From positions 4,760,084 through 4,824,083 of the forward strand of contig NC_087072.1 in assembly GCF_026151205.1 (NCBI RefSeq): a stretch of DNA of 64,000 nt. The letters run 5' to 3'. The position numbers and the translations under genes were made by a program. Below are positions 10,656 to 58,104 of the stretch, in pieces. Position 1 is the first letter of the stretch. Every line of letters starts with the position of its first letter. The stretch is from Bolinopsis microptera. Taxonomy: Eukaryota > Ctenophora > Tentaculata > Lobata > Bolinopsidae. Under the pieces are notes generated by a model. It did not search any database and was not told where the DNA came from. It worked only from the letters and a program-made list of their open reading frames with translations.

Positions 10656-11499
10656 GTAGGATGGTTTTTTAGCGCTAATTTCGGCCAGCACAATTTTCTT
10701 CAAACAAATGGATATTAAGTATCCTTTCCGACCTCCGATTGCAACAAAAATTGGTGAGATTACTCATAGACTTACAAGGAAGGTGTCCGAAAAGTTTAAA
10801 GCATATCCAACCATCAGACATTATGTTACAGTAGGGGGTGCACCATAAAAATAAACTTGCTCGGATTTTACAAATTTTTGCACCGTTGTTTTCTAGAGAC
10901 TGTGAGAATTTTCACAATACCAAATTTGTCATACCTTTTTGGAAAGATCAGTGAGTTTCGCTTAGGTGCCATACTTGATGGTGCGCGGCTTTTGGAGCAA
11001 AATTAGCTGTAAAAGTCGCGTAATTTGACCAAATTTGGCCAAATTCGTTGATTTTTGTCGTATTAGTTGGATATATCTTCAGTTCCTTGAATGAGATCAT
11101 TCTGAAAATTGGCAACGACCTTTCAATAGGGCTTTCACAACTGTCCGAAAAATTTGGTGGATATCGGAGTTGATTTGTCATACGTTGTATGACCCGCCGC
11201 GCACGAAGTGCGCGGCTCCCCCTGTAGCGTCGAAGACGCTACAGTGAAGCGACCGTGGGGGTCACCACGTGATACAAGGAGTTGATATAGTGATCAAAAT
11301 GGGGCAAAATACGCTGCTTTTAGCTGTAACATAATGTCTGATGGTTGGATATGCTTTAAACTTTTCGGACACCTTCCTTGTAAGTCTATGAGTAATCTCA
11401 CCAATTTTTGTTGCAATCGGAGGTCGGAAAGGATACTTAATATCCATTTGTTTGAAGAAAATTGTGCTGGCCGAAATTAGCGCTAAAAAACCATCCTAC
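10656..11499. mobile_element. Foldback element with about 175 bp terminal inverted repeats
   Basis: Left arm 10656-10830 (starting GTAGGATGG) and right arm 11325-11499 (ending CCATCCTAC) are close inverted complements. The spacer at 10832-11324 also occurs, inverted and without its arms, at about 23255-23640. The spacer here carries a nested 103 bp insertion at 11175-11277. No protein-coding frame is supported. Confidence 0.8.
11175..11277. mobile_element. 103 bp hairpin-rich insertion with 9 bp target duplication
   Basis: GGAGTTGAT occurs on both sides (11166-11174 and 11278-11286). The related sequence near 23280-23300 has a single GGAGTTGAT in the same context, which is the empty site. 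The insert starts TTGTCATAC and ends GTGATACAA. It contains consecutive perfect stems: TCATAC/GTATGA, CCGCGCAC-GAA-GTGCGCGG, and TGTAGCGTC-GAA-GACGCTACA, plus CTCCCCC able to pair with GTGGGGG. A 9 bp duplication suits a Mutator-like mechanism, but the class is an inference. Confidence 0.8.
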
Positions 11500-23215: not shown

Positions 23216-23640
23216 GTCGGCACGCGCGGCTCACTGTCGATGGCGCACTACATAGTTACAGCTAAAAGCAGCGTATTTTGCCCCATTTTGATCACTATAT
23301 CAACTCCGATATCCACCAAATTTTTCGGACAGTTGTGAAAGCCCTTATGGAAGGTCGTCGCCAATTTCCAGAATGATCCCATTGAAGGAACTGAAGATAT
23401 ATCCGAATACTACGACAAAAATGGTCAAATTTGGACGAATTTGGTCAAATTACGCGACTTTTACAGCTACTTTTGCTCCAAAAGCCGCGCACCATCGAAT
23501 ATGGCACCTAGGCGAAACTCACTGATCTTTCCAAAAAGGTATGACAAATTTGGTATTGTGAAAATTCTCACAGTCTCTAGAAAACAGTGGTACATGACAA
23601 AATTTTAAAATCCGAGCAAGTTTATTTTTATCGTGCACCC
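23216..23640 (-). mobile_element. Inverted, arm-less relative of the 10656-11499 element
   Basis: Reverse complement matches the spacer of the 10656-11499 element from about 10832 to 11330, but lacks the 103 bp insertion and so gives its empty site. A CpG-rich block (GCACGCGCGGCTCACTGTCG) precedes it, as near 10640. Small differences throughout show that it is a separate old copy. Confidence 0.75.
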
Positions 23641-24343: not shown

Positions 24344-24629
24344 GTAGCGTGCGCTGCTGTCTTCTCGAAATGGCAAGTGCTACGAAGTAGTGCGCGCCGG
24401 GCCTGATCATTAACAATAGTCAACCTGGTATGTGTCTCTAGTTGCCTGGCATGAGCCTCTAGTAACTTCGTATGAGCTTTGAGTAGCCTGGTATGCGAAA
24501 ATAAACATGTTAGTGCATAGTGTGTCCAAGTAAGCTGCCACATACCGAATTCAATGATCAAAATTCATGGCATAAAATGAAGAATTATTTAAGGGTTTTT
24601 ACTTTTTCCATTTTCTCCATAGAGAAAGT

Positions 24630-24734
24630 CTCTTAATTTATGCCATTTTATCCTTGCCCAGGGGCCATGCTAATCTTTTCTGTATCGTTCCAATTTTACT
24701 TTTAGTTTAACTATATGCACTACCGAAGTAGTAC
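24630..24734 (-). pseudogene. U6 snRNA-derived pseudogene
   Basis: Reverse complement contains AATTGGAACGATACAGA, AGATTAGCATGGCCCCTG and GCAAGGAT, the most conserved U6 snRNA stretch, in order. The 5' part TACTTCGGTAGTGCATATA matches the U6 5' stem-loop loosely and is separated by about 13 extra bases. The 3' part after GCAAGGAT is diverged and no terminal T-run follows. This is a U6-derived copy, not a functional gene. Confidence 0.85.
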
Positions 24735-42032: not shown

Positions 42033-42492
42033 TCACGTGATCGAATCACGTGTTTTGATAACAAAGCTAGAGACTAAGGGAATTAAGGAGTACACTGATT
42101 TTCATGTGTTTTATAATTATAGACTGACCATAAGTTCCTTTTCACAAATTGTACTACTAGTCTTAACTGTTCTAAAGATTATCTTTTGTGGGGACCGAGG
42201 GCTCATCGTTCGAGAATAAAGTAGACACTTCGGCACTTTGAGTCAAGGATCGGGAAAAAATCAATAGCCTAAATCAAATTTCTAAGAATGCTATAACGGG
42301 CGCATTTCCTTTTTTCGACAACTTTGTTAAAACTCGCGGGTTTTCAACCCCATTTGCGAGCTGAAATTGGTCAGAACGAAGGGTCTGTTTTTGGTAAATT
42401 TTCAGTGTTTTTTAATGTCCTCGTTGCCGGGGAGATTTCGTCAGGTTTAAAATATATTATAGATGAACCTTTGTTAACATTGCTTTGATCAT

Positions 42493-42602
42493 TCCAACCC
42501 CACCCATATTCTTTCTACAGGCGGTCACCCATCCAAGTACTAAACCGGCCTGCAGTTGCTTAACTTCCAAGATCGAACGAGATGGGGTTATATATTCAGT
42601 GG
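42493..42602 (-). pseudogene. 5S rRNA-derived pseudogene (unit 1)
   Basis: The reverse complement contains ATCTCGTTCGATCTTGGAAG, TTAAGCAACTGCAGGCC and TAGTACTTGGATGGGTGACC in 5S rRNA order, including internal-control-region sequence. The first about 25 bases and the 3' end beyond GCCTG are not 5S-like, so the folded molecule could not form its terminal stem. Confidence 0.85.
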
Positions 42603-42914
42603 ATATGTATTATGTAGCTGTCTGATGGTTTAGGTGTCCGTGTAAGAATGAGTGTCTCTTTGCCAAGTATGTCAGCTGTTTCAAAGAGGGAGTATAGTGA
42701 TATAGGGGTTCTATATTTCAAGACCTTAAAGGCTAAAGATGTCATTAATACAATGGTAGAAGTACAGATTATGGGCGCCAAATCGGCGTTTGAATGTGGG
42801 ACAATTTCGAAAAACTTAACTACGGTATCATCTTAACTCTAAAATCATCTACTTTGTTCAATTTTAGGGAGGGGCGCCAAAATAGTAGGGGGCGTCAACA
42901 GGCAACGTTATGCT

Positions 42915-57692: not shown

Positions 57693-57802
57693 TCCAACCC
57701 CACCCATATTCTTTCTACAGGCGGTCACCCATCCAAGTACTAAACCGGCCTGCAGTTGCTTAACTTCCAAGATCGAACGAGATGGGGTTATATATTCAGT
57801 GG
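57693..57802 (-). pseudogene. 5S rRNA-derived pseudogene (unit 2)
   Basis: Duplicate of 42493-42602. Confidence 0.85.
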
Positions 57803-58104
57803 ATATGTATTATGTAGCTGTCTGATGGTTTAGGTGTAAGAATGAGTGTCTCTTTGCCAAGTATGTCAGCTGTTTCAAAGAGGTAGTATAGTGATATAGG
57901 GGTTCTATATTTCAAGACCTTAAAGGCTAAAGATGTCATTAATACAATGGTAGAAGTACAGATTATGGGCGCCAAATCGTCGTTTGAATGTGGGACAATT
58001 TCGAAAAACTTAACTACGGTATTTAACTCTAAAATCATCTAATTTGTTCAATTTTAGGGAGGGGCGCCAAAAGGGTAGGGGGCGTCAACAGGCAACGTTA
58101 TGCG

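Follow-up and report, generated by a model that had tools for sequence, protein, structure and literature searches.

The 103-bp insert analyzed here is very probably a very short MITE, moved by cut-and-paste by a transposase of the DDE type, with a middle that would have been rebuilt by fold-back copying. It lies in a window of 64,000 nucleotides from the ctenophore Bolinopsis microptera, the window being the whole stretch of DNA that was analyzed, and its features are collected in Table 1. What was observed directly comprises the ends, the duplication of the target and its symmetric motif, the number of copies, and how little the lineage of the window copy has diverged. The core of the family is unusually rich in hairpins and appears to have been rebuilt repeatedly, and hAT, Merlin and MULE were considered as candidate superfamilies.

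Table 1. Features of the insert, its target site and its host repeat, in positions of the window.
Feature	Position	Strand	Basis
Non-autonomous DNA transposon, 103 bp, TTGTCATACG...CGTGATACAA	11175..11277	+	genome-wide matches and identical copies
Target duplication GGAGTTGAT, left copy, 9 bp at the window element	11166..11174	+	
Target duplication GGAGTTGAT, right copy, 9 bp at the window element	11278..11286	+	
Empty target site, single GGAGTTGAT, in related repeat	23299..23307	-	alignment
Left terminus TTGTCATACGTTGTATGACCC, with hairpin 1 (11177-11183, loop GTT, 11187-11193)	11175..11195	+	1938 exact genome copies
Hairpin 2, GCCGCGCAC-GAA-GTGCGCGGC, perfect 9 bp	11196..11216	+	
Hairpin 3, CTGTAGCGTC-GAA-GACGCTACAG, perfect 10 bp, variable middle	11222..11244	+	
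Right terminus, inward reading TTGTATCACGTGGTGACCCCCACGG	11253..11277	-	403 exact genome copies
Host repeat carrying the insert, with perfect 176-bp inverted arms (10656-10831 and 11324-11499)	10656..11499		

The original prediction had proposed a 103-bp mobile element with a 9-bp target duplication and an empty site in the related sequence at 23216-23640. The element is borne out, in that GGAGTTGAT stands on both sides of the insert and family copies elsewhere carry duplications of their own. The empty site, on the minus strand, is also real, since the joined flanks of the insert match the reverse complement of 23216-23640 without gaps in the part of the alignment examined, with GGAGTTGAT occurring once. 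The 9-bp length holds for the window copy but is a minority form, found in three of 85 copies with exact duplications, the window copy included, while the other 82 have 8 bp. The host repeat, of which the sequence at 23216-23640 is a related copy, is possibly itself a mobile fold-back element.

Copies of the family were abundant across the genome, as had been anticipated, with 1938 exact matches to the left 21-mer, 403 to the right 25-mer (reversed controls of each gave none) and 1988 to a broad right-end pattern. BLAST of the insert against its own 264.65-Mb genome gave at least 46 matches, the best 40 of 1780 candidates having been scored. After exclusion of eight loci (L001-L008) that duplicated later loci or the window, 145 pairings of left and right ends were read, 85 with an exact target duplication and 60 without, 17 of the latter being one base off an 8-bp repeat and the remainder including mispairings in nested copies and copies with no recognizable duplication. 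Copies with exact duplications were 74-269 bp long, with a mode of 103. The 82 distinct 8-bp targets share a weak motif that is dyad-symmetric about the center of the duplication (r 0.85, compared with at most 0.19 for other centers), and a fixed stagger together with a dyad-symmetric target are hallmarks of a DDE transposase. Nine of the 84 other exact-duplication copies are letter-for-letter the same as the window copy, and a further 26 full-length copies from the same lineage diverge from it by a mean of 0.78%, in a sample that is richer in window-like copies because 37 of the 85 came from 38 regions picked for their likeness to the window copy. Judged from this divergence, the lineage of the window copy appears to have spread recently. 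In L013, L043, L128 and L097 one copy of the family had inserted into or fused with another, and GC-rich repeats (TTCACATAGCCATGTGT... and TTAACGGGTGATACTCG...) occurred inside or just past the left ends at L066, L053, L061 and L063. A search of virus contigs with the left 19-mer returned no match.

Within the window copy, the two perfect GAA-looped hairpins that had been predicted are present with stems of 9 and 10 bp (11196-11216 and 11222-11244), and the predicted TCATAC/GTATGA palindrome can be read from the letters as GTCATAC-GTT-GTATGAC at 11177-11193. The proposed pairing of CTCCCCC with GTGGGGG is weaker than claimed, comprising five contiguous C-G pairs, and some of the right G run could instead pair with the left end (GACCC/GGGTC). 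The right terminus holds a 4-bp stem, TCAC/GTGA, at 11262-11272, and terminal inverted repeats are present in imperfect form (TTGTCATACGTTGTATGACCC against TTGTATCACGTGGTGACCCCC); the terminal ends of the family are denoted TTGTCATAC and TTGTATCAC. The high density of stems was confirmed by folding, which was well beyond chance with DNA parameters (z -6.3) as with RNA parameters (z -4.75), none of 200 shuffles doing as well in either case. It had been suggested that such density is unlike an ordinary MITE, and in stem density this is so, but a cut-and-paste MITE is indicated by the 8-bp duplication, the dyad-symmetric target and the imperfection of the terminal repeats.

Comparison of the 85 copies showed conserved ends around a variable middle. 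On the left, about 47 bases are conserved, with 69 of 85 copies within one edit of the left 47-mer; on the right about 34 are, with 66 of 85 within three edits of a right 34-mer that was typed from a lineage other than the window's. Among the 76 copies with both anchors, the nine that did not have the two together being left out, there were 48 distinct middles. Forty-seven middles were of testable length, of which 26 had a hairpin at a shuffle p of 0.05 or less and 21 had no significant hairpin. Tandem repeats occurred in L118 and L048, inverted copies of the right end in L110 and L137, and deletions among the printed copies. The largest lineage, that of the window copy, has the middle TAGCGTC-GAA-GACGCTA in 39 copies, 35 with right end CACCACGTG and three with another, and L114 is a hybrid joining this middle to right end CGCAACGTG. 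The middle TATCGTC-GAA-GACGATA occurs in three copies, all with right end CACCACGTG, and a TCGTCGAAACTCTA-like middle with loose pairing in 11, nine of them with that end, which is thus carried by 47 of the 53 copies in the loosely paired and two GAA-hairpin lineages. The middle TATCGTC-AG-GACGATA was found in 14 copies, 12 with right end CGCAACGTG, and 18 copies have other middles. A GAA loop in hairpin 2 accompanies the hairpin-3 lineages (53 of 56), and a GA loop is seen in six of the 11 loosely paired copies.

Conservation of the stems, which had been proposed as a check, gave a mixed result, with one compensatory pair swap in hairpin 3 but one-sided changes or deletions in hairpin 2, and hairpins that differ by lineage. 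A pattern of hairpin 3 with one stem pair left open matched 212 places, and among the 100 of these that were listed, a count by hand gave 65 G-C, 33 T-A, two T/C and no G/A pairs. The swap between G-C and T-A thus amounts to a single double change that was amplified in two lineages, and not to many events. Variants of hairpin 2, parsed in 76 of the 85 copies, were one-sided substitutions or deletions with no compensatory change. Hairpin 2 was missing from the first 60 bases in six of the 85 perfect-duplication copies; one of these, L128, is a fusion with hairpin 2 further in, and the other five are without it altogether. L004 (near 1316, minus strand), L023 (near 13, plus strand) and L083 (near 2980, minus strand) hold members of a sister family, 66-71 bp long and related in its ends (TTGACATACG...CATGTATCAA), with an exact 8-bp duplication in the first two and a CG-rich GAA-loop hairpin near the center. 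A hairpin common to both families was considered, but the CG-run stem of the sister family did not exceed dinucleotide shuffles (z -0.7 and -1.0).

These patterns can be read as follows. The transposase would cut with an 8-bp, rarely a 9-bp, stagger at a weakly palindromic target, and the first 47 or so and last 34 or so conserved bases are presumably the parts that the enzyme needs. The middle would be a stretch re-synthesized or rejoined in gap repair or replication, where the growing strand may fold back on its own left arm and copy it, producing a perfect hairpin. Different lineages would acquire different loops in this way, such as those of TATCGTC-AG-GACGATA and TATCGTC-GAA-GACGATA, tandem duplications and deletions could also arise in the middle, and a later single swap from T-A to G-C would give the stem of the window-copy lineage. 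The middle hairpin thus looks to have been made at least twice by fold-back copying, with the ends unchanged. This is consistent with the left arm TATCGTC being common to lineages and the right arm differing, as expected if the left arm was copied. Both the fold-back copying and the order of events were deduced by comparing the copies among themselves, with no outgroup, and selection for a hairpin would leave the same trace.

It is possible, if short of probable, that the family belongs to hAT, Merlin or MULE, with an autonomous partner that was missed or whose ends have diverged, an explanation that concerns superfamily only and is compatible with the reading given above. Elements of hAT, MULE and Merlin typically make target duplications of 8 or 8-9 bp, and the 8-bp duplication of this family fits hAT, with 8-9 bp fitting Merlin. 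Transposase domains of all three occur in the genome, with at least 150 hAT matches (150 of 366 candidates scored), 88 MULE and 58 Merlin. Against this, in 33 loci read (15 hAT, six MULE and 12 Merlin, 12 of them second copies), a minority of the domain matches, no stretch came within four substitutions of either MITE end, and a left-like stretch with five mismatches in L099 was dismissed as weak and judged due to chance. Ends of hAT elements begin with CAG- or TAG-like letters (YARNG), and the edges found at a subset of the hAT loci, CAGTGGCG, TAGGGTTGCC and CAGGCTTGTCC, begin CAGTG, TAGGG and CAGGC; the MITE ends begin TTGT, unlike these. The MITE ends also lack the initial GG of this genome's Merlins, for which an edge GGCAGTC with an 8-bp duplication was found in L104 and L106 and GGCAA at one edge of L098. 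For MULE, the comparison covered the sequence of three groups (six loci) of the 88 matches. Searches for P-type (PF21787) and Zisupton/KDZ (PF18758) transposases gave no genome matches, and none in the control genomes either, so that both are uninformative. One hAT with open frames of 513-530 amino acids and the CAGTGGCG edge was present at seven places (C5:2520666, C12:6593751, C12:7057528, C13:15225551, C4:546338, C4:2710032 and C186:8560), and the two copies compared were 98% identical.

A longer relative was also sought from the ends themselves. With end patterns excluding the MITE letters, the 20 regions read held short, nested or truncated copies and no autonomous element, with a few left ends having no right end inside the fetched stretch. 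From the start of contig C1, pairing 100 left with 100 right ends yielded 60 short pairs and nothing that was convincing as a long element; the sole pairing above 400 bp, of 9.9 kb, was set aside, since the sequence around its right end is repeated and also found at L091. The 13 domain matches listed for the first 10.85 Mb of C1 all lay farther than 10 kb from any listed MITE end, and in the loci searched no autonomous element or transposase tied to the MITE ends was found.

Alternatively, the hairpins may be kept by selection as an aid to movement, for example as extruded hinges by which the two ends of a duplex of about 100 bp could meet, or as landing structures for the transposase. This is a variant of the explanation given above, compatible with a MITE, and we consider it unlikely. 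Perfect middle hairpins are indeed found in two lineages whose right ends differ, the change from T-A to G-C preserves the stem of hairpin 3, and DNA folding is weaker in the loosely paired lineage (mean z -3.05, nine sequences) than in the hairpin lineages (mean z -4.59 for 14 sequences, -5.13 for 3 and -5.78 for 17). However, seven of 58 distinct copies no longer than 160 bp fail to fold beyond z -2, compensatory changes are absent from the parsed copies of hairpin 2, and the sister-family hairpin does not exceed its shuffles. The five perfect-duplication copies without hairpin 2 point the same way, although they could have lost it by later deletion. Insertion into hairpins was ruled out, as stems averaged 3.5 bp at 64 joined target sites and 4.0 bp at 401 control places, although a few copies, L013 and L043 among them, do lie within other copies. 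The same hairpins are moreover expected from fold-back copying alone, and in view of the weak-folding copies, the copies lacking hairpin 2 and the non-hairpin targets, fold-back copying in a tolerant middle is preferred over selected hairpins. A more specific and quite improbable version is that hairpins with C(GAA)G loops, once extruded, serve as hinges that let the ends come together, that fold-back copying re-creates the hinges, and that a variant gaining a hairpin starts a burst. Its premise is that the element is below the persistence length of DNA, about 150 bp, so that its ends are hard to loop together.

The original prediction of a folded RNA was not supported, and a structured non-coding RNA gene or its retrocopies is highly improbable, for the RNA fold and the one compensatory pair in hairpin 3 would suit it but Rfam covariance models run on the window gave no match at the insert at the gathering threshold, the interior is fluid, five perfect-duplication copies are without hairpin 2, and a fixed 8-bp duplication with a symmetric target is not typical of retroposition. 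A pre-microRNA in particular is unlikely in a ctenophore insert, since Mnemiopsis, another ctenophore, is reported to be without microRNAs (PMC3563456). The only Rfam matches elsewhere in the window were a U6 snRNA (64.8 bits, 24615-24720, minus strand) and two 5S-like sequences at 42496-42604 and 57696-57804, accompanied by identical pairs at 42034/57234, 28272/44461 and 34000/49142; the spacing of 15-16 kb between the identical members of each pair suggests that a segment with the 5S-like sequence has been duplicated.

Like ordinary MITEs, the family is short, non-coding and present in many copies, with terminal inverted repeats, a fixed-length duplication and empty sites. It differs in that its terminal repeats are imperfect, its body is nearly all short stems, and its middle varies between most lineages and many copies. 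Helitrons and IS200/IS605 elements likewise have a hairpin near a transposon end, but elements with the Helitron 3′ hairpin or the IS200/IS605 hairpin ends are not known to leave a target duplication, and the 8-bp duplication seen here is unlike a Helitron. Derivatives of abortive gap repair are known for Ac/Ds and for Medicago PIF/Harbinger (PMC2213677), and these share with the present family ends that are kept, an interior that is rearranged, and tandem repeats tied to further rearrangement. In contrast to them, copies here are already about 100 bp, some rearrangements are perfect inverted copies, and no longer parent was found. Repetitive hairpin-forming elements in sponge mitochondrial genomes (PMC2800124) are similarly short spreading repeats that form hairpins, but those are mitochondrial, whereas the MITE family has an 8-bp duplication of transposase type and resides on nuclear contigs of chromosome scale. 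The GC-rich loop-anchor motif described in Mnemiopsis (PMC12221973) was considered as a possible link. The literature searched held no description of this MITE family, which is weak evidence of absence, and a limited search found no account of fold-back copying in MITEs.

The family has several implications. First is that it offers a natural record of apparent fold-back copying, in which many variants of one tiny transposon have fixed ends and target choice and a rebuilt core, several of the cores having become a new perfect hairpin. Secondly, it is a test bed for whether hairpins aid movement or merely tolerate it near the lower size limit. These data also caution against taking a compensatory stem change in a repeat as proof of a functional RNA. 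Finally, the family is an abundant addition to the repeats of an early-branching animal, Bolinopsis microptera.
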